This document shows positions 7,008 to 62,046 of a stretch of DNA of 64,000 nucleotides, one piece after another. Every line of letters starts with the position of its first letter. The first letter of the stretch is position 1. Below the pieces are notes generated by a model, which did not search any database, was not told the DNA's origin, and saw only the letters and a program-made list of their open reading frames with translations. Origin of the DNA: Planctomycetota bacterium (GTDB lineage Bacteria > Planctomycetota > Phycisphaerae > UBA1845 > UTPLA1); assembly GCA_003576905.1 (NCBI GenBank), contig QEVG01000009.1, positions 1 through 64,000 on the forward strand, given 5' to 3'. A program made the position numbers and the translations under genes.

Positions 7008-7236
7008 TATGCGCGGGGGGCCCAGGCCCGCAGGTCGCCTGCGGCGGCTGGGCTTAAAGGGCGGTCGCGCCGCCCACCGATAACATTCCGGCCCACAAGC
7101 AATTAGGGCGGCTGCGCGGAGGCGTGGGCGGATAAAAGGCCCGGCGCGGGCGGCGCGTCGATCCGAGCTCGCGGCGATGTGCAATAGGACATGCCGGCGG
7201 CGCGACGGATGTTTGCCTTCGCGGCCTCAGGGGAGT
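7008..7236. other. Intergenic region inside the glycan locus
   Basis: About 230 bases of GC-rich sequence between the large glycosyltransferase and the cytidylyltransferase. No gene, clear terminator or strong promoter is visible. A short in-frame extension of the next gene reaches back to an ATG at 7177 but adds only an Arg/Cys-rich segment unlike the family. Confidence 0.4.
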
Positions 7237-7974
7237 GTGGCGTTGGTCGAGGTGCTTGGACTTGTCACGGCGCGCGGAGGCTCAAAGGGGCTTCCGGGAA
7301 AGAACCTGCGCCCGCTGGGCGGGCGGCCGCTGATCGCGTGGACATTGAGTGCCGCACGGGCGTCGCGGTGCATCTCGCGGGTGGTGGTATCGACGGACGA
7401 TCCGGTGATCGCGGAGGCGTCGCGCGAATGGGGCGGGGACGCGCCGTTTTTGCGCCCGGCTGAGCTTGCAGGCGATGCCTCGCCGCATATCGACGTGGTG
7501 CTGCATGCCCTCGGATGGCTGGCGGAGAGGCAGGGATACGTGCCGGACTGGGTTATGCTGCTTCAGCCGACATCTCCATTCCGTACATCCGACGATATTG
7601 ACAGTGCGTGGCGCGTGGCAATCGCGACCGGGGCGGCGGCGGTGGTGAGCGTGGTAGAGACACACGACCACCCATACCTGGCGCGGCGGATCGGTCCGGA
7701 CGGCGTACTTGAGTCATTTGTGAGGACGGAGCTGGCCTATCCTCGGCGGCAGGATCTTCCGAAGGCGTACGCGCTGAACGGCGCGATTTACCTGTGCCGC
7801 CGCGACGCGCTGGAGCGCGAACGGACCTTTGAGCCGGCGGGGGCGCGCGGCTACGAGATGCCGCCGGAGCGATCGATGCAGATCGACACGGCGTGGGATT
7901 TCCGGCTGTGCGAGCTGATCTGCGCCGAACCGGGCCCCGGGGGACACGTCGGCCCGGAGAGGAGAGACCGCTGA
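7237..7974 (+). CDS. CMP-sugar synthetase (acylneuraminate cytidylyltransferase family)
   Basis: About 245 residues. It begins almost directly with the diagnostic nucleotide-binding loop ARGGSKGLPGKNLRPLGGRPL, then VVVSTDDPVIAEAS, LLQPTSPFRTSDDIDSAW, and ends with MQIDTAWDF, all typical of NeuA/KdsB-like enzymes that activate a nonulosonic-type sugar with CTP. It probably supplies CMP-activated sugar to the neighbouring transferases. No NeuB or NeuC homologue is in the window, so the identity of the sugar is open. The start is uncertain: GTG 7237, TTG 7243 and GTG 7252 are all in frame after an AGGGGA near 7229, and the TTG has the best spacing. It ends one base before the next gene's ATG. 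Confidence 0.88.
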   Translation: MALVEVLGLVTARGGSKGLPGKNLRPLGGRPLIAWTLSAARASRCISRVVVSTDDPVIAEASREWGGDAPFLRPAELAGDASPHIDVVLHALGWLAERQGYVPDWVMLLQPTSPFRTSDDIDSAWRVAIATGAAAVVSVVETHDHPYLARRIGPDGVLESFVRTELAYPRRQDLPKAYALNGAIYLCRRDALERERTFEPAGARGYEMPPERSMQIDTAWDFRLCELICAEPGPGGHVGPERRDR

Positions 7975-39953: not shown

Positions 39954-42032
39954 ATGGCAGCAGTCGATAAACGCGGCGAAGCGGTGGCGGTGGTCGGCGG
40001 ACTTCTGAGTCTGTCGGCGTGCGTGGTCCTCTCCATCCTCGCCATCTGGACCGATTCCAGCGCCGTGTGGGCGGTCTGCTTTCAGTCGTTCGGCGCGATC
40101 GGAATCTGGCTGCTCACGGTGATCCAACTCCACCAGCAACGCCTGGTCTCCGAGGAGAAGCTTGAACTCGCGGCGATCGAGCGCGATCGAATCGAACGGC
40201 TGGGCGGCGCGAAGACCATCTTTGAGGAACAGGACCTCGACCAGATGGAGAAGCTGGCGATGGGCCGCCGGCTGCGGGCCATCGAGCGGTTTCTCGTTCC
40301 CATCCTGGCGATCCTGTTCGCGGTTTTTCACATCGCGGCCGGCGCCTCGGTTTTTCCGTGGGCCCTGCAGTTTCCGCCGATCCGTGCGGTCGGCGACGCG
40401 CCGGTGCTGCACGCATCGGTGCTTCTGTTTTTCTGTGCGGGCATCGCATTTGTTTGCTTCATGATGTCGCGCTATGCCCTGGGGCTGAGCCGGATTCGCC
40501 AGTGGAGTCTGCTCCGGCCCGGCGGGAATTATCTTTTCGGCACGAGCGCGTTCTGTCTTGCCGTCGCGCTGGCGCTGCTTTGTGTCATCAGCGGTCTGCC
40601 GCAGGTGGAAGTCTGGGTGGGCCGCGCCATCGGCATCGTCATGATCTGGATGGGCGTTGAGACGCTCATCAACTATGTTCTCGACTTCTACAGGCCGCGC
40701 GTTCCGGGCGAGGAGCCGCGGCCATTTTACGACAACCGGCTGCTGGGCATGTTCAGCGAGCCGGTCGGGATCCTCCGCAGCGTCGCGAACACGATCGACT
40801 ACCAGTTCGGCTTCAAGGTCAGCGAGACGTGGTTCTACAAGCTGCTGGGGCGGGCGGTTCTTCCGCTGCTCCTGTTGCAGGTCGTGATCATTCTGGCGCT
40901 GACGTGCATCGTCGTTGTTCCGCCGGGCCACCAGGCGGTGCTTCTGCATCTTGGCCAGTTGCGGCCGACGACGGCCAAGGCGGGCATCCATTTCACGTGG
41001 CCATGGCCCATCGACACCGCCGCGATCATCCCCGTGGACCGGATTCAGCGCATGGCGATCGGCTACGAGGAAGAACAGACCACCGACGAGGACTCCTCGC
41101 GGACACAGGTCATCCTGTGGACGGTCAAGCACTACAAGAAGGAATATCAGCTGCTTGTGGCGGATCGTTCGGCGTCGGCGGCGGACAAGGTGCCGATCAA
41201 CCTGCTGAGCCTGAACATGCCGGTTCATTGGCGCGTCAAGCATGATGACAAGGAAGTGATTCGCTTTTATTCGCAGAGCGCCGACGCCGCGCAGCTCATT
41301 GAAGCCATCGCTTATCGCGAACTGACCCAATACGCGGCCGAATCGGACGTTCTCAAGCTGATGGGGTCCGGTGGGGTGGAGACATCGGCCGAGCTTCGTC
41401 GGCGCATTCAGGCCGGCTGCGACGCCGCCGGATACGACGGCGGCGGCCTCGGCGTCGAGATCGTCATGGTGGGAATCGGCGGCGTACACCCTCCGTCCGA
41501 CGAGGACGTCGCCAAGACCTATGAGCAGGTGGTCAGCGCGATTGAGACGCGCGACGCGACGATCAAGGGCGCCGAAGGGGACGCGGCCACGCGGCGGATC
41601 GAGAGCGCCGGTGACCAGTGGAAGGCGCTCTACGAGGCGATTCGTCTGGAAGACGATCTGCGCAGCCGGAACGATCCCGGCCTGGCCGAACAGACAGCCG
41701 TTGTCGAAGAGATGCTCCGAAAGGTGATCGGGGGAGAAGCCCGTGTTCGCGCGGCGACAGCTTCGAAGAACGCGTTTGCGCGGTTGTTCTCGCAGAAGTC
41801 GGAGGCGGAACTCTTCGAGACGCGGCTGGCGACGTATCGGGCGGCGCCCGAAGTGTACAGCCTTCGCAATTACCTGAGGATGATGGAGGAGGGCCTTCGG
41901 CGCGTGCGCAAGTTCGTGATCGCGCTGGAGAACCCGGACTCCGTTGTGTACGACATTGATCTGCGTCCACCGGCCGAGATCGATCTGCTCGGCGCCGAAC
42001 AGGCGGCCGCCGAACAGAAAAGGGCGCAGTGA
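39954..42032 (+). CDS. Polytopic SPFH (HflK-like) membrane protein
   Basis: Product of 692 residues. The N-terminal third (1-320) has about six hydrophobic helices (VVGGLLSLSACVVLSILAIW, FLVPILAILFAVFHIAAGA, VLLFFCAGIAFVCFMMSRYA, FCLAVALALLCVISG and others). This is unlike HflK, which has one. A last helix (LPLLLLQVVIILALTCIVVV) leads into an SPFH/band-7 domain: VPPGHQAVLLHLGQLRPTTAKAGIHFTWPWPIDTAAII, then NMPVHWRVKHD, LIEAIAYRELTQYAAES, and a long coiled-coil with many charged residues (about 510-650). SPFH proteins oligomerise into cages or scaffolds that organise membranes and regulate proteases. It is the first of three SPFH genes in one operon. The ATG at 39954 follows AAAGGT. Confidence 0.88.
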   Translation: MAAVDKRGEAVAVVGGLLSLSACVVLSILAIWTDSSAVWAVCFQSFGAIGIWLLTVIQLHQQRLVSEEKLELAAIERDRIERLGGAKTIFEEQDLDQMEKLAMGRRLRAIERFLVPILAILFAVFHIAAGASVFPWALQFPPIRAVGDAPVLHASVLLFFCAGIAFVCFMMSRYALGLSRIRQWSLLRPGGNYLFGTSAFCLAVALALLCVISGLPQVEVWVGRAIGIVMIWMGVETLINYVLDFYRPRVPGEEPRPFYDNRLLGMFSEPVGILRSVANTIDYQFGFKVSETWFYKLLGRAVLPLLLLQVVIILALTCIVVVPPGHQAVLLHLGQLRPTTAKAGIHFTWPWPIDTAAIIPVDRIQRMAIGYEEEQTTDEDSSRTQVILWTVKHYKKEYQLLVADRSASAADKVPINLLSLNMPVHWRVKHDDKEVIRFYSQSADAAQLIEAIAYRELTQYAAESDVLKLMGSGGVETSAELRRRIQAGCDAAGYDGGGLGVEIVMVGIGGVHPPSDEDVAKTYEQVVSAIETRDATIKGAEGDAATRRIESAGDQWKALYEAIRLEDDLRSRNDPGLAEQTAVVEEMLRKVIGGEARVRAATASKNAFARLFSQKSEAELFETRLATYRAAPEVYSLRNYLRMMEEGLRRVRKFVIALENPDSVVYDIDLRPPAEIDLLGAEQAAAEQKRAQ

Positions 42033-42135
42033 CGTCGGTCTCGTTCAGCGCCGCCGGCGGCCATCGGGTTGTTGTCCCGCGGGCCGGGGCGCCGGACACG
42101 ATCGAGCGAAATGGTTTGAAACGAGGTCGATAGCC

Positions 42136-43125
42136 ATGTCCAGAAATATGCCGACCCTGCTGGTGGCGCTTCTGCTCGTCGTGATCATCGCGTTCATGAT
42201 GTGCGCCTTTCAGGTGCGTTTCACGGAAACGGCGATCGTCACGCGGTTTGACAAGATTCACAAGGTCATCACGTCCGATGAAGCCGGGCTGCACTTCAAG
42301 GCCCCATGGCCGATCGACCGGGTCCACCGGTTTGACACGCGGCTTCGCTCATTCGACACCGAGTTTCGTCAGCTCGGCACGGAGGACCAGAAGACCGTCG
42401 TCATGACGGCCTACGCGACCTGGCGGATCATGGACGGTGAGAAGTTTTTGAAGGCCGTGGGCCGCGAGGATGCCGCCGCCAAGAAGATTCGCGACCTGCT
42501 GGAGAACCGCGTGTCCACCGTGTTGCGAACGCATCCGCTGGGAAACCTGGTCAACGTGGATCCGGCCCAGATGAAACTTTCGCAGATCGAGCGGGAGTTC
42601 CTGGAAGGCGTCAAAGGCCCCGCGATCGACACCTATGGGATTGAGATCGTCAGCGTAGGGATTCAGCGGCTGGGCATCCCCGAGTCCGTCACGCGGGAAG
42701 TCTTCGCACGCATGAAGGAGGATCGCCAGAAAGCCATCAAGGAATACACGGCCGAGGGCCAGGCGATCGCCCAGCAGATTCGGGTGGAGGCCGAGGAGAT
42801 ATCGAGCAAGATCATCGCCCGGGCCGAAGCCTACGCGAAACAGATCGAGGGTCAGGGCGAGGCCGAGGCGGCCAAGTACTATGCGAAGTTCGCCGAGAAT
42901 CGAACCCTGAGTGACTTCCTGAAGAAGCGCGAAACGCTTCAGAAGATTCTCGAGGCCGGGCAGGTGACGCTAGTTCTGGATGCGAGCCAGTTGGAGCCTT
43001 TCAAGATGCTTCGTGACGCGGCGATCTCGTTCAAGAACGCCGTGGCGCCAAAAGACGAGAAGCCGCGGGGCAACGACGCCGTGGATGACAAGCTTGGAGC
43101 CGCTGGGCCGCCCCGGGACCGTTAG
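42136..43125 (+). CDS. HflC-like SPFH protein
   Basis: Product of 329 residues. One N-terminal helix (LVALLLVVIIAFMMCAFQV), then the band-7 domain: RFTETAIVTRFDKIHKVITSDEAGLHFKAPWPIDRVHRFDTR, TAYATWRIMDGEKFLKAVG, and TYGIEIVSVGIQRLGIPESVTREVFARMKEDRQ, followed by an Ala/Glu-rich coiled-coil. It resembles HflC, the partner of HflK in the FtsHKC complex. FtsH is not in the window, so a protease link cannot be claimed. It is the middle of the three SPFH genes, 103 bases after the first. An ATG at 42136 follows AGGT. The C-terminus (about 295-329) is low-complexity and hydrophilic. Confidence 0.9.
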   Translation: MSRNMPTLLVALLLVVIIAFMMCAFQVRFTETAIVTRFDKIHKVITSDEAGLHFKAPWPIDRVHRFDTRLRSFDTEFRQLGTEDQKTVVMTAYATWRIMDGEKFLKAVGREDAAAKKIRDLLENRVSTVLRTHPLGNLVNVDPAQMKLSQIEREFLEGVKGPAIDTYGIEIVSVGIQRLGIPESVTREVFARMKEDRQKAIKEYTAEGQAIAQQIRVEAEEISSKIIARAEAYAKQIEGQGEAEAAKYYAKFAENRTLSDFLKKRETLQKILEAGQVTLVLDASQLEPFKMLRDAAISFKNAVAPKDEKPRGNDAVDDKLGAAGPPRDR

Positions 43126-43187
43126 ACCCCGAAGGCCCGAGCCCGTGCCGGTTGCAGAGAACCGAAATGCGCCGCCGCCGAGAGTAG

Positions 43188-44648
43188 ATGATGACGACGA
43201 ATGTATCGCAACCGCAGCCCATCATGCCCCAGGGGCCCGACATCGGCACTCTGGATCCGGCGAACCAGTTCCTGGCGGAAGCGCTGAGCAAGAGCTTCCG
43301 TATTCTGAAGCTAGTCATGCTGGTCCTGGTGGTGCTCTACTTCCTCTCGGGGCTGTTCGCGGTGAAGCCCAACGAGGTCGGTCTCAAGCTGCGCTACGGC
43401 CGTGTCGTCGGGGCGGGGGATAATTCGGCAAACCCGGTGCTTCAACCGGGCTGGCACTGGTCGTGGCCTTATCCCTTTGAACGATGGGTGACGGTGCCTA
43501 CGAGCGAGCGGGAGCTTCCGATCGAGTTCATGTTCATGCTGACCGACGAGGAGCGCACCGGCGGCATATCGGGCTACCGCTATGAGAGCCTCAGTCCGAT
43601 GCGGGATGATTTCCTCATCACGGGCGACGTAAACATTCTCCATGCCTCGCTCGTCGTGAAGTATCGAGTCACCGACGCGGTGGCATACCTGACGAACGTT
43701 CTACCGATGCCGGCGCCGCGGGCGACCGTCCGATCGCCGGAGTATCAGCGTTATCCAGAATACACGGTGCTCCGGGCGCTGGCGCGAAACGCGGCCATTG
43801 AAACGGCCGCTCGGCGCGAGGCTCTGGACATTCGCGGCACGGGGCAAAGCGCGTTTCTCGTCGCGGTCGCCACGTGCCTGAGCGACAAGCTCAAGAACCT
43901 GGAGAAGCAAGGCCAGTCGCTCGGGATATCCGTCGATCCCGAATCCGGCGTCATCGCTCCCAAGGCGGGCGGCACGGTGGAAGCGATCCTGCCGCCCCGT
44001 CAGGTCCAGGAGGTCTTCGACCGCGTTTTCGCGGCGCAAAGCGAAAAATCGGCGGGAATCACCAAGGCCCGGGCCGAGGCGCAGCAGCGCCTCCTCGAGA
44101 CCGCGGGACAGGACCATGAACGGATCGCCGCCGCGGTCGACGAGGAGTTTGAGCTGATGCTCCGTCTCTCGCAGGAAGAGGGTAGGGCGACCGCCGCCGA
44201 TGCCGAGACCGTGGCCCGCCTGAGGTCCGAGCTGGAGGAGAAGCGCCGGGTCGTGGAGGCCATGCTGAAAAGCGCCAGCGGCGAGGTTCAGGCCGTACTG
44301 ACCAGCGCGCAGATCGCGCGCGATCAGATCGTCAAGGAGGCGTCCGGCGATTACGAGCAGTTTCAACGGTTGCTGCCGGAATACGCTCGCCATCCCGAGA
44401 TTTTCATGTCGCGCTTCCGCGACGAGACCTACGCCGACGCGCTCGCCAATCCGAAAGTCGCAAAGATGTTCATACCCGAGCCGCCGCGCGGCAGCGGCGG
44501 GCGCATCTGGCTCCAGATTCCGAGGTCGTCCGCGCCAATGCCGGAGGAGGCGGGGAATGCGAAGTCCTCGGCGCCGCAGCGGGGCCGGGACCGGGACCTC
44601 GGCAAGGGCGATGTCGTCCGATCCAGACCGACCATCGTGGGGCCGTAA
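43188..44648 (+). CDS. Third SPFH (HflK-like) protein of the cluster
   Basis: Product of 486 residues. A short N-terminal cytoplasmic segment is followed by one helix (KLVMLVLVVLYFLSGLFAV). The band-7 domain starts KPNEVGLKLRYGRVVGAGDNSANPVLQPGWHWSWPYPFERW and includes DVNILHASLVVKYRVTDAVAYL. A coiled-coil follows (about 280-400) with AQSEKSAGITKARAEAQQRLLE. The fold order is that of HflK, and it differs clearly from the first SPFH gene by having a single helix. The stop codon overlaps the ATG of the ABC ATPase gene by one base (TAATG), which suggests translational coupling of the SPFH and ABC parts. Confidence 0.87.
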   Translation: MMTTNVSQPQPIMPQGPDIGTLDPANQFLAEALSKSFRILKLVMLVLVVLYFLSGLFAVKPNEVGLKLRYGRVVGAGDNSANPVLQPGWHWSWPYPFERWVTVPTSERELPIEFMFMLTDEERTGGISGYRYESLSPMRDDFLITGDVNILHASLVVKYRVTDAVAYLTNVLPMPAPRATVRSPEYQRYPEYTVLRALARNAAIETAARREALDIRGTGQSAFLVAVATCLSDKLKNLEKQGQSLGISVDPESGVIAPKAGGTVEAILPPRQVQEVFDRVFAAQSEKSAGITKARAEAQQRLLETAGQDHERIAAAVDEEFELMLRLSQEEGRATAADAETVARLRSELEEKRRVVEAMLKSASGEVQAVLTSAQIARDQIVKEASGDYEQFQRLLPEYARHPEIFMSRFRDETYADALANPKVAKMFIPEPPRGSGGRIWLQIPRSSAPMPEEAGNAKSSAPQRGRDRDLGKGDVVRSRPTIVGP

Positions 44649-50731: not shown

Positions 50732-51035
50732 ATGTGCATTTCGATGACACGCCGGTGAGAGGGTTGGGGACAGTCTATGTCCTCGCAATGTCACCTCGCC
50801 GGGCAGGCGTCCGGGCCCCTCAAGTACTCTGCAAGGATTTCCGCCAGTGCCGGTGAGGCTGCGCGCGATCCCCTTCGTCGCGACGTCGGGAAAGCTTCGC
50901 CGTCGCGTGCTGTTCGCCGCGTGATCCACCCGGCACGCGGACCGCCGTTTGCTTCTGCGGGCGTCCCTTTTTTTTTCGGTCTGCGCCCTGCTGAAGGTTT
51001 GCAATTGCGGTCTCGCGGCCGCAGGAGTGAAGGAC

Positions 51036-54000
51036 ATGCACAGAAACAGAAAAACACCGCGACGGCTGATCGTGCCGGTGCAACGGGCGTGTACAGTTCT
51101 GATCGCCATGACGGGCTTGATCGGAGTGGGTACGCCCGCTGAAGCTGTGACCATCATCTCTCAATCAGCCAACACACAGGTTTTCCTCAACGACAATTAC
51201 ACCACGATCGAGTTTGAGAATCCGCTCAGTGGATCGGAGACGGTCCACGGTTATCGCGTTCTTGAGTGGCGAGACGCCGACTACCAGTCCCCCGCGTGGT
51301 ATGACGACTGGACCGTCAGTCATCCGGGGTCGATTGACGGCAACGTCAACGAGATCTGGATGCGTCAGAACGGGCATGCCATCTGGACGTCGACCACGGT
51401 TATCAGCGACGCCGTCTCGATTCACCTCCACGGCGATGGAAACGACGGTATCGCACAGGTCATGGTCGATGGGTCGGAAGTCGCGCGGCTCGACATGGGT
51501 TCCAATCCGCCTCAGAACGCCGTCGTACTGGTCACACGTCTTGCGTCCAGCACGCACACGATACGAGTCAGCGATCTGGGAATGGGCACGATGGGCACCG
51601 ATGTCGCGACGCTCGGGGTCTGCACGCTGCGGTCCGGCGCCGTCTACAAGTGGCATCAGCCGCCGCAGCCTGGCACGCCGTCGAACGTGTACTTCGGCTG
51701 GAACGAACCCTCCATTCTCTATTTCGGGCCGATCGTCGCGGACGACTGGGTCTGCATCGGCAATCAGCCGGTGACGACGATTCGGTGGTGGGGATCGCAC
51801 TTGGGCTGGAGGGAGCCGGCGCCTCCGCCGCAGCTTCCCGACTTTTTCTGGCTGACCATCTGGACTGACGTGCCTGGAGGCGCGGCGGGCGAGCCGTTCA
51901 GTCATCCCGGAGTCGTGCTTTGGCAGTATCAGACCGGGCGGATCGATCCGGTCCTGGCGGGGTGGGACTACGACCCGCGGACAGCGCAGTTCGAGTCCTG
52001 CTTTGAGTACCGCGTAGACTTGCCTCCCGACAAGTACTTCTGCCAGAATCCGGCGACGAACCAGATTCTCTGGCTGAGCGTCGCGGCGGCGTATGTGGAT
52101 GTCCCACAGATCGAGTATCCGTGGGGTTGGAAGACGCGGCCGCGTGATCCGACCTCGCCCGCGCCGGACGACGCGGTGCGTGTGTTCGAACCGGTAGCCC
52201 CGCAAGTCGGCATGCAATACGTCGCCGGCGATCCGATCTGGTGGCCGGTCGAGACGGAGTCGTGGGACACGGCATTTGAGCTTTACTCGGGCCCGGTGGA
52301 CAAATGGGTTCAGCCTCCGGACCTGACGGGGCTGGGGATTGATGTCAATTGTACGGCACCTATGATGTTCCCTCCGCCGCCGGTTCTCCTTGCCGATGAC
52401 TTCAAGTGCATTCAGCCTGGCGTCGTTACGCGGGTCAGCGTCTGGGGCTCGTGGCGAAACGACTACCTGCCCTTCGGCGGGGATCCCCTGGCCGTTCAGT
52501 TCACGCTAAGCATTCACGCGGACGTTCCGGCGGGCCAGCAGGAGCCGTGGAGCATGCCAGGGAACCTGCTCTGGATGCGGGAGTTCGGGCCCGGCTCGTA
52601 CGGCGTATTCCCCGTGCCGCTTAATGAGCCGGAAGGCTGGTTCAATCCGCCGAGTGAGTTCGTGCCGGTGGGGGATTTTACCTGCTGGCGCTACGACTTT
52701 GTCATCCCGCCGATGGAGGCTTTCCACCAGGAAGGCAGCCCTGCCCAGCCGATTACGTACTGGCTGGACGTGCAGGCGCGGCCGCTGGATCCGCAGGCCT
52801 TCTTCGGCTGGAAGACATCGCAGTGTCACTGGAACGACGATGCCGCATGGGTCAACGGCATTGAGCCGTATTTCGGTATCTGGAACGAGCTGCGTTATCC
52901 CCCGCCGCATCCGTTGCACCCCGAGTCGATCGATCTGGCCTTCATGATCGGGAGCGACCCGGTGATGCCGCAGCCGCCCGAGCTCAAATGGTCTCAGCCA
53001 CCGACGCCGTGGACGACGGAGAACGGCTTCAACGGCTGGAACGAGTTGAGCTGGTTCGGCGGGCCGCAGATCGTCGCCGACGACTGGGTCTGCACGACGG
53101 ATCAGCCGGTCACGGATGTTCACTGGTGGGGTTCGTTCCTTGGCTGGGATCAGCCGTATGCACCGCCCGATATGCCGGTTCAGTTCCATATTGCGGTGTG
53201 GACCGATGTTCCGGCGGATCCGGGAGGTGGAACACCGTGGAGTCACCCCGGCACGGTGATCTGGGAGAACTACTGCGATACGTTTACGGCGGAGTTTGTC
53301 GGCTGGGATTTCGACCCGCGCAACCCGCTCGCATGTCCCGAGGCATGCTACAAGTTCGAGCAGTTGCTTCCGGACGAGGGCTGGTTCTACCAGCGTGGAC
53401 CGTACAACATCTACTGGATCAGCATTGCCGCGATCTATCCGCCGGGCATGATTGTCGAACATCCCTGGGGCTGGAAGAGCACCCCGAGGCTCGACGCGCA
53501 ATCGCCCGATGATGCGGTTCGAATCTTCGATCCGGTGGTACCGGGGATCGAAATCACTTATCAGGCCGGCGAGCCCATCTGGTGGCCGACGTTCGATCAG
53601 TCGTGGGACATGGCATTTGCCCTGACGACGATTGAGCAGATCGAGCCGGACGCCGATCTTGGCGACGCTCCGGACAGCTCGAACAACTCCGGCGCGGCCA
53701 TGACGGCCTATCCGGCCGGCGGCCCGCCGGGCGTCATCGCACACTATCCGACGGTACATCTTGCGGGATCGCCGCCCTTCGGGCCGATTCATCGGCAGCC
53801 GCGAAACATGGCCTATCTGGGCACATGGGTGACGCTCGAGCAGGAAGCCGACATCGGACTGGATGAGGATTTCGTCAACAACATCGACCCGCCGTCCGAC
53901 CAGCCCGACATGGACTTCTCCGACGACGCGGTTGTGCTGCCGCTCTCACTTCCGCACTGCATGCCGACAACCTTCCAGTACACGATTACCGTTGTGAGCC

Positions 54001-55355
54001 CGGTGGCGATTCCAATGTTTGTGAACGTCTGGTTCGACTGGAACCGTGACGGAGACTGGGATGACGTGATGCAGTGCCCGAACAACGTCACCGCGCCGGA
54101 ATGGGCGGTGCGAAACCAGGTACCGGCGGTATTCGGACCGGGTACGTACACCCTTACGACGCCGCCGTTTGTTTCATGGCATCCCGCTTCCACGCCGCAG
54201 CCCGATCCGATCTGGATGCGCATTACGCTCTCCGAAATGCCGTGGTCGGCGACCGGGGGAGCCGGATATGGTGGATCGGGACCGTTGAGCGGATATCAAT
54301 ATGGCGAAACCGAGGATTACTACTTTGTTCCGGATGTGCCGCCGCCGGTGGAGACCAAATGGATCCAGCGGCCGCATGACATGGGTCAGGGATTCGACGC
54401 CGCATCGAGTTACTGGTGGAACGAGGGAGTGGTTTCGCCGGTGAACCGCGTGGTCGCCGACGATTTCATCTCGGACGGCCGACCGATTCGCATCCTGCGA
54501 TGGTGGGGCAGCTACCTCGACGATCGCTATGCGCCCGAGGCGACGCCCGACCAACTGCATGTGCTTGACGGCTGGTTTATCAGCTTCCACTGGGCGCACC
54601 CCGGATTGAGCGTGGCTGACTGCCCGCCAAACGTGATGTTCGATCCTCCGCCGACCGTGCTCGGCGTGTACTACGCGCCGGCCGCGGCGGTGCATATTGA
54701 ACGCCTGCCTATGCTGGATTGCTTCCAGGACCCGGTGTACGTGTACACGGTGGACTTGTCGCGGTGCTGTCTGCTCTGCCGCGAGATCGATCCACGGTTC
54801 CCGACGGATATACCGCCGGCGACACCGTTTGATTTCCGGGAGCGCGGGGCGGCCCGATACTGGCTCGATGTGCAGGCGGTGGTTGGCGTGACATGGAACC
54901 CGCCGGCCTGCTCGTTTGATGATCGCATCCTGACGGGTCACATCCCGTCGGAGCTCGAGCCGGATGGTCAGTTCTGGGGCTGGCATACCAGCCCGGCCAA
55001 CGTGATGCCGCAGGGACCGCTGGCGTGGGCATGTGTCGGCCAGATCGTGAATCTCGCGCCGTATCCGCAGGGTTGCTGGAACTACGGCAACTGGATGAAG
55101 CAGCCGTGGCTGTGCCTGACGGCCCCACCGCCGCAGGTGGACATGGCGTTCATCCTTTATGCGGACCGGTGCCTGCCGCTCGGTGACGTTAATCGCGACG
55201 GCCTGGTGAACGCACTGGACATCCAGTGTTTCACCGACTGCATCATGGGCTACACGATCCGGCCGTGCTGGTGTGGGTGCGGTGAAATGAACTCAGATCT
55301 CGTCGTGAATGTCGGCGATATCACGCCTTTTGTGGACTTGCTGCTCAGTCTGTAG
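51036..55355 (+). CDS. Secreted 1439-residue repeat protein (DUF7901-like repeats, GEVED domain, dockerin)
   Basis: The ATG at 51036 follows AGGAG. Residues 1-35 are a signal peptide. Residues 36-200 are an unrecognised domain. Four related modules begin near residues 205, 420, 650 and 1105, each with a KW.QPP opening, a GWNE-like segment, VADDW/ADDF and a W..WGS segment, followed by WTDVP and SHPG in the full copies. This resembles a planctomycete repeat annotated as DUF7901. A GEVED-type domain lies at about 870-1095 (DLGDAPDSSNN...DFSDDAV...WFDWNRDGDWDD...GETEDYYF). The C-terminus has two dockerin-type loops (GDVNRDGLVNALDIQCF and GEMNSDLVVNVGDITPFV). It is probably exported to the surface. 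The function is unknown. Confidence 0.82.
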   Translation: MHRNRKTPRRLIVPVQRACTVLIAMTGLIGVGTPAEAVTIISQSANTQVFLNDNYTTIEFENPLSGSETVHGYRVLEWRDADYQSPAWYDDWTVSHPGSIDGNVNEIWMRQNGHAIWTSTTVISDAVSIHLHGDGNDGIAQVMVDGSEVARLDMGSNPPQNAVVLVTRLASSTHTIRVSDLGMGTMGTDVATLGVCTLRSGAVYKWHQPPQPGTPSNVYFGWNEPSILYFGPIVADDWVCIGNQPVTTIRWWGSHLGWREPAPPPQLPDFFWLTIWTDVPGGAAGEPFSHPGVVLWQYQTGRIDPVLAGWDYDPRTAQFESCFEYRVDLPPDKYFCQNPATNQILWLSVAAAYVDVPQIEYPWGWKTRPRDPTSPAPDDAVRVFEPVAPQVGMQYVAGDPIWWPVETESWDTAFELYSGPVDKWVQPPDLTGLGIDVNCTAPMMFPPPPVLLADDFKCIQPGVVTRVSVWGSWRNDYLPFGGDPLAVQFTLSIHADVPAGQQEPWSMPGNLLWMREFGPGSYGVFPVPLNEPEGWFNPPSEFVPVGDFTCWRYDFVIPPMEAFHQEGSPAQPITYWLDVQARPLDPQAFFGWKTSQCHWNDDAAWVNGIEPYFGIWNELRYPPPHPLHPESIDLAFMIGSDPVMPQPPELKWSQPPTPWTTENGFNGWNELSWFGGPQIVADDWVCTTDQPVTDVHWWGSFLGWDQPYAPPDMPVQFHIAVWTDVPADPGGGTPWSHPGTVIWENYCDTFTAEFVGWDFDPRNPLACPEACYKFEQLLPDEGWFYQRGPYNIYWISIAAIYPPGMIVEHPWGWKSTPRLDAQSPDDAVRIFDPVVPGIEITYQAGEPIWWPTFDQSWDMAFALTTIEQIEPDADLGDAPDSSNNSGAAMTAYPAGGPPGVIAHYPTVHLAGSPPFGPIHRQPRNMAYLGTWVTLEQEADIGLDEDFVNNIDPPSDQPDMDFSDDAVVLPLSLPHCMPTTFQYTITVVSPVAIPMFVNVWFDWNRDGDWDDVMQCPNNVTAPEWAVRNQVPAVFGPGTYTLTTPPFVSWHPASTPQPDPIWMRITLSEMPWSATGGAGYGGSGPLSGYQYGETEDYYFVPDVPPPVETKWIQRPHDMGQGFDAASSYWWNEGVVSPVNRVVADDFISDGRPIRILRWWGSYLDDRYAPEATPDQLHVLDGWFISFHWAHPGLSVADCPPNVMFDPPPTVLGVYYAPAAAVHIERLPMLDCFQDPVYVYTVDLSRCCLLCREIDPRFPTDIPPATPFDFRERGAARYWLDVQAVVGVTWNPPACSFDDRILTGHIPSELEPDGQFWGWHTSPANVMPQGPLAWACVGQIVNLAPYPQGCWNYGNWMKQPWLCLTAPPPQVDMAFILYADRCLPLGDVNRDGLVNALDIQCFTDCIMGYTIRPCWCGCGEMNSDLVVNVGDITPFVDLLLSL

Positions 55356-55551: not shown

Positions 55552-57933
55552 ATGAGCGAAACACCGTCTGTGATTTCTCCAACAAGGAAGCTCGAGGCCG
55601 CGACGTGGGGCATTGCCGCGGCACTCCTGGTCATTTGCGCCGCGGCGTTTTTCCTTCGCACCTGGTTTCTCCGAGACCGCGTGCATGGCGGCGACATCGT
55701 CTGCTTTCAGGATAATGATCCCTGGTATCACTACAGGGTGCTCCAGTGGCAGGTAAAGAATTTGCCCTGGCGGTTTACATTCGATCCCTATGCGGTGTAC
55801 CCCGGTGGGCAGGGTGTGCCGGTCGGGCCTTTTTTTGACGCGTCTCTGGCCGCCATCTTGTGGTCGGTGGGCCTTGGCGCGCCGTCGCAGGCAATGATCG
55901 ACCTGGGGGCGGCTTACTATGCGCCCGCGCTGGCCGTTCTGGCGTGTCTTGCGACGTTTGCCGCGGGCCGCGCGATCTTTGATCGATGGACGGGATTGAT
56001 CGCGGCGGCGGCGCTTGGGCTGTTGCCCGGCACTTTTTTTGTTCGCTCCTCGCTGGGATTTCTTGATCATCATGTGATGGAGGTGCTGCTGAGCACCTGT
56101 GTACTCTGGCTCCTGGCCTCCGCGCTGGAACGGGGTGAAGGGGGGCCATTCACAGGTCCCTTGCGGAACGTGACACTCATTCGCCCGGTCGCGGCCGGGC
56201 TGGCTCTCGGGTGCTATCTGTTGACGTGGGTCGGCGGGAATTTTCTGCTCGCCGTTCTGTTCGCGTGGGGGTTCGTACAGCATCTTGGGGACCAATTTGC
56301 CGATCGGCCGGGGGGGCGCCTTGCGCGTGTCATGGCGCCCTGCTTCTGCGTGGCACTTGCCGTTGCGGCGTTCTATCCGGATTACGCGTGGGGGCGGTTT
56401 CAGATTCACGGAATCATCGCGGGGATCGCGTTGTTTGTGCTGCTTGACGTCATGGCCCATCTCCGGAGGCGAAGGCGGCTCCGCCCGGGCATTTACTCCG
56501 CGATGCTTCTGGGCCTGGTGATTGCGGGCGTTGGGATTGCCTACGTGATCGCGCCGCGGGTCGTTTCACATGCGTGGAGTGAGCTGGGCCGGCTCGCGCC
56601 TGGCGCCGCGGCGAGGACAATCACCGAGGCGCGGCCGATCATCTGGACGAGCAAGGGGTATTCCTGGATGCCCTTGTGGGAGATGTTCGGAACGACATTC
56701 CCGATTGCCGCGATTGGGCTGGTGCTTCTGGGCTGCCGGGCGGTCATGCGTCCAAGGGCCCCGCGCGTTCTGTTCATGGTCTGGAGCGCGATCGTCATCG
56801 GCGCGATGTTCGGCCAGGGAAGGTTCTCGTATTACGCGGCACCGGTTATCGCGATCCTAGTGGCGTGGACATGCCGGGCCTGTACGGCGGCGGCCTGGTC
56901 GCTTACGACGAGGCGGGCCATGAATCGGCGTGAACCGGTACCGCGCGCGCGGCGGCAGAATCGCGTCGAAACAGCGGGCGAAAGCAAGGGCGATTCTGAA
57001 CGGGTGAGGGGAAACATCTGGTGCACCGGCGCAGTGGCCGTCGCGTCACTTGCCATTGCGTTCGTGCCAAACGCGCGACGACTTCCCGAGGTTGTTTCAT
57101 TTTATGACGGGCCGTCGGCCGAATGGTCCGAAGCGCTGACATGGCTGCGGAAGAACTCGCCGGAACCGTTTGGAAACGCAGAGGCGTACTTCGCGGCGTG
57201 CGCCGGCGCGGGGGAGGCGCGTGAGCGGCTGGACTACAGCCGCGCGTACGGCGTGATGAGCTGGTGGGACTACGGCTACTGGATTTCCGGAATCGCCCGT
57301 CGACCGCCGAACAGCAATCCGACACAGGCCGGCGCGGTGCCTTCCGCTCGATTTCTCCTCGCACAGACTGAGGAAGAGGCATGGAGGATACTTGATGACG
57401 CGGGGTCACGTTACATTGTGCTCGACTGGCTCTTGCCTCGATGGGAGAAGCCCGGCGACCGACGGGTTCGCGGCAAGTTCTCGGCTCTCCCGGTATGGAC
57501 TGGGGACGCGCTCAATGCCTTCTACGAGCGGGTCGTGATGAAGACTCCGGACGGCAGGATCGCCCGCGTGTTTCTTTACTACCCGCCTTACTTCCAGTCC
57601 GCCCTCGTGCGGATGTTTATCTTTTCCTGCGGGCCTGTGAGGGTCGGCCGTCCCGTGAAGGTCTACACCCTCGGCAAGCGGGACGGGCGCGGCGAGAATC
57701 TGCGGATGGTGACCTCCATGCGGGAATTTGACACGTACGAATCGGCCCGTGCGTTCGTTGAACAGACCGGAGATGAGAACACGGTCATCGCGTCCGAAAG
57801 CCCGTTCGTAAGCTGCATACCCATGTCCGGGCTGCGGCGCATCCGCCTCGTCCATCGGTCTCCGACGACGGTAGCGACAATTCATGGACGCTCGGTTTCG
57901 CCGGTCGCGGTCTTCGAGTATCGAAGGGAATGA
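55552..57933 (+). CDS. STT3/AglB-family oligosaccharyltransferase
   Basis: Product of about 793 residues with many N-terminal helices (about 12) and a large C-terminal extracytoplasmic domain (from about 540). The family motifs are in order: FQDNDPWYHYR near residue 53 (first metal-binding loop), PYAVYPGGQGVPVGPFFD, LGFLDHHVMEV near residue 170, TITE near residue 356 (the TIxE motif of archaeal AglB), and WWDYGYWI near residue 571, the acceptor-sequon-binding motif. STT3 proteins transfer a lipid-linked glycan to Asn in secreted proteins. The motif set is AglB-like rather than the PglB SVSE form. The ATG at 55552 is preferred, though a TTG at 55477 would extend it. It follows the giant secreted repeat protein. 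No lipid-linked-oligosaccharide assembly genes lie beside it. Confidence 0.88.
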   Translation: MSETPSVISPTRKLEAATWGIAAALLVICAAAFFLRTWFLRDRVHGGDIVCFQDNDPWYHYRVLQWQVKNLPWRFTFDPYAVYPGGQGVPVGPFFDASLAAILWSVGLGAPSQAMIDLGAAYYAPALAVLACLATFAAGRAIFDRWTGLIAAAALGLLPGTFFVRSSLGFLDHHVMEVLLSTCVLWLLASALERGEGGPFTGPLRNVTLIRPVAAGLALGCYLLTWVGGNFLLAVLFAWGFVQHLGDQFADRPGGRLARVMAPCFCVALAVAAFYPDYAWGRFQIHGIIAGIALFVLLDVMAHLRRRRRLRPGIYSAMLLGLVIAGVGIAYVIAPRVVSHAWSELGRLAPGAAARTITEARPIIWTSKGYSWMPLWEMFGTTFPIAAIGLVLLGCRAVMRPRAPRVLFMVWSAIVIGAMFGQGRFSYYAAPVIAILVAWTCRACTAAAWSLTTRRAMNRREPVPRARRQNRVETAGESKGDSERVRGNIWCTGAVAVASLAIAFVPNARRLPEVVSFYDGPSAEWSEALTWLRKNSPEPFGNAEAYFAACAGAGEARERLDYSRAYGVMSWWDYGYWISGIARRPPNSNPTQAGAVPSARFLLAQTEEEAWRILDDAGSRYIVLDWLLPRWEKPGDRRVRGKFSALPVWTGDALNAFYERVVMKTPDGRIARVFLYYPPYFQSALVRMFIFSCGPVRVGRPVKVYTLGKRDGRGENLRMVTSMREFDTYESARAFVEQTGDENTVIASESPFVSCIPMSGLRRIRLVHRSPTTVATIHGRSVSPVAVFEYRRE

Positions 57934-58042: not shown

Positions 58043-58561
58043 ATGCACGTGTGCGAGACAAGTTCGCGCGGAAGCGATGAATCGCGGGAGAATCGGTCCT
58101 TGGAGCAGGCGGTCTGTCCACGTTGCCGCGAACGGGTCCGAATCGGTTCGCGATTCTGTGCCCGGTGCGGGATGATTCTGGGAGTGGTGTCGACGGAGTC
58201 CCATCGCGCGGCGGAACTCATGCATCCGTCCCCGCTGCCGGCTCCGGAGGGCATGTTGCCGTGCAGCGGGCTTCGGGATGTCTATTACCGGCAGGAGGCC
58301 GCGTGGGGCGGGGAGAAGCTGCTGGCGAGTGAAACCGTGGCGATCGCATTGTATTCGACAGGTCATTCGCTGCGGGAAGTGACGATTGAGCTTTCGGGAA
58401 TCGGCGGGGCGGACGGCCGGCGGTTTTCAGTGCGTCAGGTCGTTCCCGAAGTCCCCCGAGGTCGAGAGATTCGAACCGAGATAGCCAGTTATGATCTGCC
58501 GGACGACCCAAGGCAGTTCAGCGTATCGGTTGTATCCGCCGAAGTGAATGTCGATAAGTGA
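58043..58561 (+). CDS. Zinc-ribbon protein of unknown function
   Basis: Product of 172 residues. Residues about 25-45 hold a zinc-ribbon motif, CPRCRERVRIGSRFCARCG. The remainder (about 80-172) is a beta-rich domain (VAIALYSTGHSLREVTIELSGIGG...FSVRQVVPEVPRGREIRTEIASY) resembling a small immunoglobulin-like or MSP-like fold. The function is unknown. It ends 33 bases before the SPFH gene and is probably co-transcribed with it, so it may be an adaptor in SPFH membrane organisation. Confidence 0.72.
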   Translation: MHVCETSSRGSDESRENRSLEQAVCPRCRERVRIGSRFCARCGMILGVVSTESHRAAELMHPSPLPAPEGMLPCSGLRDVYYRQEAAWGGEKLLASETVAIALYSTGHSLREVTIELSGIGGADGRRFSVRQVVPEVPRGREIRTEIASYDLPDDPRQFSVSVVSAEVNVDK

Positions 58562-58593
58562 AGGTCGCCGCCGCGACAGAAAAGGAGACAGCC

Positions 58594-59559
58594 ATGGGAT
58601 CCTTCGTCATCCTCGGAGTGCTCGTCGTTTTCGGAGGGATGTTCGTCCTCAGCGGATTCTTCACCGTCGAGCAGCAGACGAAGGCCATCGTCGAGCGGTT
58701 CGGCAAGTTCAACAAGGTCGCCCATCCCGGCCTGAACTTCAAGATCCCGTTGATCGACAAGGTCGCGGGACGGATCACGCACCGGGTCCGGGAGCTGGAG
58801 GTGAAGGTGGAGAGCAAGACGAAGGACGACGTTTTCGTCGACCTGCTCATCGCCGTTCAGTTCTTTGTTCAGGAGAGCGACGAGTCGGTGATCTCGGCCC
58901 ATTACAAGCTCATGAACCCCGAGCGGCAGATCGCGTCGTACGTCTTTGACACGGTCCGGGCCCTTGTACCGGAGATGCCGGTGGACAATGTCTTTGCGGA
59001 GAAGGAGAAGATCGCGTCGGCCGTCAAGGAGCGCCTGGACCACGTCATGACCCATTTCGGCTACACCATGATGCAGAGCCTGGTGAACGACATCCAGCCG
59101 GATGCCGAAGTCAAGACGGCCATGAACCATGTGAACGCCACGGCCCGCATGCGCGAGGCCGCCAAGAACGAGGCGGAGGCCAAGAAGATCCGGGTCATCG
59201 CCGAGGCCGAGGCCGAGGCCCGCGCCAAGGAGCTACAGGGTGTCGGTATCGCCCGGCAGCGGCTGGCCATCGCCCGCGGCCTGAAGGAATCGGTGGATGC
59301 GTGCGCCGAGGCGGGGATTTCTCCCGAAGAAGCGACCAAGATGGTGCTTCTCACCCAGCACTATGACACGGTTTCTTCGGTCGGCGCGCGAAGCAAGGCC
59401 ACGATCATGATGATTCCCTACAGCCCGGACGGCATGAACCAGGTCGGGGAGCAGATCACGCAGGCGCTCCTGACGACGCACGAGGCAAACAAGCCGGCGC
59501 CGGAAAGCAAGGGCGACAAGGGGCGTAAGTCGCATCCCGAACTGCCGACGCACTCGTAG
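58594..59559 (+). CDS. SPFH protein of the stomatin/HIR type
   Basis: Product of 321 residues. The ATG at 58594 has AAAAGGAG upstream. One N-terminal helix (FVILGVLVVFGGMFVLSGFF), then the band-7 domain: FTVEQQTKAIVERFGKFNKVAHPGLNFKIPLIDKVAGRITHRVRELEV, VFVDLLIAVQFFVQ, and VPEMPVDNVFAEKEKIASAVKERLD, with ending MREAAKNEAEAKKIRVIAEAEAEA. The sequence is closer to eukaryotic HIR/stomatin proteins than to HflK/C. It is the fourth SPFH protein in this window, but from a different subfamily and with a different neighbour (the zinc-ribbon protein). It probably organises membrane microdomains. Confidence 0.93.
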   Translation: MGSFVILGVLVVFGGMFVLSGFFTVEQQTKAIVERFGKFNKVAHPGLNFKIPLIDKVAGRITHRVRELEVKVESKTKDDVFVDLLIAVQFFVQESDESVISAHYKLMNPERQIASYVFDTVRALVPEMPVDNVFAEKEKIASAVKERLDHVMTHFGYTMMQSLVNDIQPDAEVKTAMNHVNATARMREAAKNEAEAKKIRVIAEAEAEARAKELQGVGIARQRLAIARGLKESVDACAEAGISPEEATKMVLLTQHYDTVSSVGARSKATIMMIPYSPDGMNQVGEQITQALLTTHEANKPAPESKGDKGRKSHPELPTHS

Positions 59560-61716: not shown

Positions 61717-62046
61717 TCACTCGTCGGGCATGGCGAATGCGTAGCGAATCGCTTCGAATACAGCTTTCATCGTCTCATCACCCAGGCGGACGATTCTACG
61801 ATCAAGCGTTACTCTTGGCATCGTGAGAATGTTGTCGAGCGAAACGGCACAGAGGGTCGGAACGCCACATTCAGGTGACAAGATCACTTCCGATTTGATG
61901 TGTCTAATCGTCCGCGTAAGCGGTGCGACGGTGACGTTGGACAGATGTGCAATCGCGTCGTCGCGTGTCAGAATCAGGACGGGACGACGACCCGCAGGGG
62001 ACGGCAAATTTGCCCACCAGATATCCCTATGCCTAGGTTTGCCCAT
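61717..62046 (-). CDS. MazF/PemK-family toxin (endoribonuclease)
   Basis: Product of 109 residues, a full MazF-type fold: HRDIWWANLPSPAGRRPVLILTRDDAIAHLSNVTVAPLTRTIR at the N-terminus, with the conserved Arg and Thr of the active site, then EVILSPECGVPTLCAVSLDNILTMPRVTLDRRIVRLGDETMKAVFEAIRYA. MazF toxins cleave mRNA at short specific sites and stop growth until antitoxin levels recover. The gene starts three bases after the end of the antitoxin-like gene, as in typical operons. It is convergent with the RRM gene. The target sequence cannot be predicted. Confidence 0.93.
   Translation of the reverse strand: MGKPRHRDIWWANLPSPAGRRPVLILTRDDAIAHLSNVTVAPLTRTIRHIKSEVILSPECGVPTLCAVSLDNILTMPRVTLDRRIVRLGDETMKAVFEAIRYAFAMPDE

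Follow-up and report, generated by a model that had tools for sequence, protein, structure and literature searches.

Does a planctomycete possess an oligosaccharyltransferase (OST) of the archaeal kind, and what would such an enzyme do in a bacterium? To our knowledge, nearly everything known of bacterial N-glycosylation concerns PglB of the Campylobacter type. The question was raised by aglB, a gene located in the 64,000 nucleotides of planctomycete contig QEVG01000009.1 analysed here (the window), which a first-pass annotation had described as an archaeal-type STT3 enzyme.

Family and fold of the planctomycete protein

The aglB open reading frame (55552..57933, forward strand) starts with an ATG at 55552, ends with its stop codon at 57933 and encodes 793 residues; an in-frame TTG is found 75 bases 5' of the ATG. 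TIGR04154, the NCBIfam model of archaeal OSTs (full name 'oligosaccharyl transferase, archaeosortase A system-associated'), matched residues 23-790 with 477 bits against a cut-off of 450 (1.3e-142). The Pfam families AglB_core-like (6.4e-23, 81.7 bits, cut-off 27) and STT3 (9.3e-19, 68.6 bits, cut-off 24.5) were also recognised. Searches of PDB sequences retrieved Archaeoglobus fulgidus AglB (AfAglB) at 1.7e-52 with the single query and at 5.8e-136, over residues 9-690, with a 43-row family profile, whereas neither search matched any PglB chain up to E 10. No second STT3-domain gene was detected in the genome (4.71 Mb, 65 contigs, 97% complete), where the other TIGR04154 matches reached 19-41 bits and were taken as other GT-C enzymes. 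The same genome holds an exosortase-family gene, which recalls the archaeosortase wording of the TIGR04154 name.

An AlphaFold model computed from family relatives was predicted with a pLDDT of 89.1 and a pTM of 0.90. Its best match in the PDB was AfAglB (Z 41.3, 3.5 Å, 673 residues, 24% identity). Further matches were eukaryotic STT3 (Z 28-35), C. elegans DPY19 (Z 26), Campylobacter PglB (Z 25.1, 13% identity) and other GT-C folds (ArnT, Z 20; PMT, about 20; ALG12, 18). The AglB fold being closer and the AglB core domain being present, the protein does not belong with the PMT, ArnT or ALG enzymes. With AfAglB (AfAglB-L, PDB 7e9s/3waj/5gmy) and the TIGR04154 OSTs it has in common the fold, the metal site, TIxE, WWDYG, a DK-type motif and the phosphate-site arginine; it differs by its 24% identity, its bacterial host, a DK insertion with a leucine in place of the methionine of the DM form and a donor lipid that is presumably a bacterial polyprenol. 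PglB (PDB 6gxc, 5ogl, 3rce), reported in epsilon- and deltaproteobacteria and Aquificae (PMC4894442), resembles it as a bacterial and presumably single-subunit OST with the same overall fold, TIxE and WWDYG, but is only 13% identical to it and lacks a sequence-level match. Eukaryotic STT3A, STT3B and yeast Stt3 share the GT-C fold, WWDYG and the metal site with it; unlike the planctomycete protein, they carry SVSE, extra subunits and the double-sequon motif, and group with TACK/Asgard AglB.

Catalytic residues and sequon-binding motifs

The four motifs named in the first-pass annotation are all present, and each was located by alignment, that to 3waj giving the equivalent residues of AfAglB. 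The first DXD region, DNDPWYHYR (residues 54-62, 55711..55737), contributes D56, equivalent to the metal ligand D47 of AfAglB, and the second, FLDHH (residues 170-174, 56059..56073), contributes D172 and H174, equivalent to D161 and H163. TITE of external loop 5 (residues 356-359, 56617..56628) ends with E359, which corresponds to AfAglB E360, and R424 (56821..56823) corresponds to R426 of the lipid-phosphate site. WWDYG occupies residues 571-575 (57262..57276) and is followed by a DK/DM-type motif with an insertion, D625...K642 (DWLLPRWEKPGDRRVRGK, 57424..57477, forward strand as are all these features). K642 sits in GKF with a DM-like spacing and a leucine in place of the methionine, and the insertion resembles the relaxed haloarchaeal form of the DK motif (PMC5131992). 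The roles of the metal ligands, of TIXE and of the phosphate-site arginine are those given by the AfAglB structure paper (PMC8342417), and in solved structures the TIxE, WWDYG and DK-type motifs bind Asn-X-Ser/Thr (PMC8342417). Across 39 bacterial rows, D56, D172, E359, R424, W571, D573, Y574, G575, R584 and D625 are invariant, as one sees in an enzyme that is active and kept by selection.

One argument of the first-pass annotation has to be corrected. It took TIxE as a hallmark of AglB, as opposed to an 'SVSE' form in PglB; in fact TIxE is common to archaeal AglB and bacterial PglB, and SVSE is the eukaryotic form (PMC8342417). The argument is mistaken, yet the assignment to AglB does not need it.

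Bacterial relatives, phylogeny and residence in the genome

The gene is not unique: Chloroflexota, Acidobacteriota and a small number of Planctomycetota have a diverse group of bacterial AglBs. A scan of genome contigs gave relatives in Planctomycetota, Dehalococcoidia/Chloroflexota and Acidobacteriota at 26-48% identity, whereas archaeal relatives in the same scan reached 20-24% only. In a careful tree, Planctomycetota and Acidobacteriota formed one clade (support 100/99) and most Chloroflexota AglBs a second (99/99). Halocatena and AfAglB, the two euryarchaeal rows of this tree, which holds no PglB rows, were placed beside the bacterial clades, and their joint split from TACK/Asgard AglB was supported at 100/100. 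A quick tree agreed and put human STT3B on the TACK/Asgard side. The placement in an STT3 tree that had been suggested as a check is thus on the euryarchaeal side. A single bacterial AglB clade as opposed to Halocatena and AfAglB had a support of only 59. TIGR04154, the PDB sequence search, the structure comparison (Z 41.3 vs 25.1) and the tree agree, and the conclusion that the gene product is an OST of the archaeal (AglB) type and not of the Campylobacter PglB kind is therefore supported.

The planctomycete AglB thus belongs to scattered and largely undescribed bacterial AglB lineages, together with Chloroflexota and Acidobacteriota, which are distinct from PglB; the enzyme family is known, its bacterial branch little described. 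Our search of the open-access literature found no description of AglB in any of the three phyla. The available text of Lombard 2016 (PMC4973528) reports that a few bacterial homologues branch within the euryarchaeal STT3 clade, from which at least two archaea-to-bacteria transfers were inferred. Both sets consist of bacterial genes on the euryarchaeal branch, but that text names no planctomycete, acidobacterial or Chloroflexota case, and the present set is much larger and deeper than the one it describes. Two contigs deserve a remark: one, labelled Syntrophomonas (Bacillota), has an AglB that falls among those of Dehalococcoidia, by misbinning or recent transfer, and a Dehalococcoidia contig (L024, 4715-10319) carries two tandem aglB genes.

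Within the source family, 4 of 17 genomes have an aglB above the TIGR04154 cut-off, and the bacterial-family profile matched 8 of 397 sampled genomes of the source class, all 8 belonging to two families within a single order. Such patchy presence in the family argues that the gene has no essential core function there. Two further AglB relatives come from planctomycetes that are not of this class (L082 and L083) and have WWDAG, not WWDYG. The copy of one source-family genome (G396) groups with those of the other family (83/92), whereas the AglBs of the source genus fall nearer Acidobacteriota (94/94, just short of the star given to clades in the tree), and this split placement makes transfer or repeated loss likely.

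Downstream of aglB, a zinc-ribbon protein is encoded 110 bases 3' of the stop codon (58043..58561, forward; weak zinc-ribbon matches below cut-off; 40-46% identity within the genus), and its gene is overlapped by the start of a gene for an HflK-like SPFH/Band_7 protein (58558..59559, forward; 82-84% identity in genus mates). The three species of the genus all keep the order aglB, zinc ribbon, SPFH, one of them within a 3.4 Mb contig. This shared order makes contamination very unlikely and marks aglB as a resident gene of the planctomycete genome. Its orthologues in the genus are intact and 48% identical, compared with 82-84% for the adjoining SPFH protein, so the OST diverges fast. Outside the genus, none of these neighbours was conserved in the other families examined, where aglB is accompanied by genes for TPR, FtsY-like, transaldolase and other proteins.

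Glycan genes, acceptors and proposed function

The first-pass annotation had noted a glycan locus about 42 kb from aglB and no assembly or flippase gene adjoining it, and both observations stand. The immediate neighbours encode a DUF7901/GEVED secreted protein and the zinc-ribbon and SPFH proteins, and the glycan genes are at 3.6-13.6 kb of the window. They comprise GT2 and GT4 glycosyltransferases, a PseF-like cytidylyltransferase below cut-off, an FkbM methyltransferase and a polysaccharide deacetylase, and no flippase was seen among them. The PseF-like gene (7177-7974, forward), a candidate CMP-nonulosonate cytidylyltransferase, scored 144 bits for a cut-off of 205.7 and is adjoined by a Glyco_trans_1_2 gene of 872 codons. 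The secreted protein encoded directly upstream of aglB (50949-55355, forward) is large, with four DUF7901 domains, GEVED, a dockerin-like C-terminus and only 4 N-x-S/T sites.

Elsewhere, the genome holds two Wzx-type flippase genes (contigs C50 and C1), three PF02397 priming transferases and four MraY/WecA-family genes, one of which (contig C2) looks like MraY by its position in an apparent mur cluster. Three Chloroflexota loci encode an AglJ-like GT2 within about 0.4 kb of aglB. These GT2s resemble AglJ and further synthases of polyprenyl-phosphate sugars, although their best-scoring models, TIGR04182 or PpgS, stay below cut-off; GT2s of this sort beside aglB would be expected for a lipid-phosphate glycan pathway. 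Their nearest homologue in the planctomycete genome belongs to the C50 flippase locus (L160, 4058-19045), an unusual glycan locus that encodes this AglJ-like GT2, a YfhO-like protein, the flippase, a glutaminase-WbuX amidotransferase fusion (686 residues) and a methyltransferase/GT2/GT2 fusion of 1479 residues. We considered this locus as a dedicated donor locus of AglB and rejected it as an obligate partner, its genes failing to track aglB. G406, which bears aglB, lacks the flippase and WbuX genes, and G397, without aglB, has both; WbuX occurs in 3 of 4 aglB-bearing and 2 of 13 aglB-less genomes of the source family; the flippase is also absent from all four aglB-bearing f103 genomes (4/4); and the GT2 has orthologues in the aglB-less G392, G393 and G395. 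Contig C1 carries a set of Wza/Wzz/Wzy/Wzx exopolysaccharide genes, a possible donor locus but not a specific one. The genome search proposed by the first-pass annotation thus succeeded in part: flippases, priming transferases and an AglJ-like GT2 do exist, but no locus is tied to AglB, dedicated pgl/agl-type loci being absent next to the gene and the unlinked candidates not following its distribution.

Acceptor sequons were counted in 47 predicted secreted proteins, a small set based on crude secretion calls, which contained 90 N-x-S/T where shuffling predicted 87, and 102 occurrences of the reversed motif. Counts in cytosolic proteins and in an aglB-less relative looked alike, with no excess, so that these numbers speak neither for nor against use of the sequon. 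That N-glycosylation is rarely described in Planctomycetota, as had been stated, agrees with the literature found, in which the only planctomycete glycoprotein, the S-layer protein of Kuenenia, is O-glycosylated (PMC5088730).

Given its family, its fold and its preserved catalytic residues, we consider it highly probable that this AglB-branch STT3 is a functional single-subunit OST, most likely moving a lipid-linked glycan to N-X-S/T of exported proteins. Its multi-helix membrane domain combines the metal site formed by D56, D172 and H174 with external loop 5 bearing TITE, and its C-terminal globular AglB core provides WWDYG and the DK-type motif. On the outer side of the cytoplasmic membrane, the enzyme would bind a polyprenyl phosphate- or pyrophosphate-linked glycan and move it en bloc to the asparagine of N-X-S/T (X not Pro). 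The donor glycan may come from the unlinked loci with flippases, priming enzymes and the AglJ-like GT2, on a lipid that would be a bacterial polyprenol. We infer that general protein N-glycosylation is likely in the source planctomycete.

The most serious competitor of this OST reading, though itself an unlikely one, assumes a GT-C transferase that has lost N-glycan formation and, for instance, serves another acceptor (lipid, polysaccharide or Ser/Thr) or only hydrolyses lipid-linked glycans. It would account for secreted proteins without sequon enrichment, for the lack of a linked assembly locus and for the fast divergence of the protein (48% within the genus vs 82-84% for the adjoining SPFH). 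Against it, TITE, WWDYG and D625/K642 are all retained, E359 and D573 do not vary among the bacterial rows, and in solved structures these motifs bind Asn-X-Ser/Thr (PMC8342417). One outcome that the first-pass annotation had named as refuting its reading, a place among GT-C enzymes that do not recognise sequons, was thus not observed.

Two other readings are less likely still. A Campylobacter-like, PglB-type OST, resembling AglB through the common STT3 core only, would suit the bacterial host and the TIxE form, which PglB shares (PMC8342417), but it is very improbable: neither sequence nor family profile matches PglB up to E 10, the fold comparison gives Z 25 and 13% identity for PglB vs 41 and 24% for AglB, and the TIGR04154 cut-off is exceeded. 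We give as little credit to a recent stray gene without a settled role, whether by assembly contamination or fresh archaeal transfer. Its patchy presence (4/17 genomes in the family, 8/397 in the class sample) could be read that way, but the AglB, zinc ribbon, SPFH order extends to three species, one with a 3.4 Mb contig, and AglB must be old in bacteria since relatives at 26-48% identity form starred clades.

Returning to the functional OST, we lean towards the view that Planctomycetota, Acidobacteriota and Chloroflexota have a second bacterial N-glycosylation system, independent of PglB, which would associate an archaeal-type OST with glycans that unlinked loci build on bacterial polyprenol. 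If the AglB branch is active in these three phyla, general protein N-glycosylation is wider in bacteria than recorded and follows a separate route. The branch would then also be a source of new single-subunit OSTs to test and to use in glycoengineering, and their sequon and glycan preferences might be new as well. Two further features of the window were noted: three tandem SPFH/Band_7 genes followed by ABC transporter genes (39954-44648, forward), the SPFH gene after aglB being the fourth, and a PemK/MazF-like gene (61720-62046, reverse).
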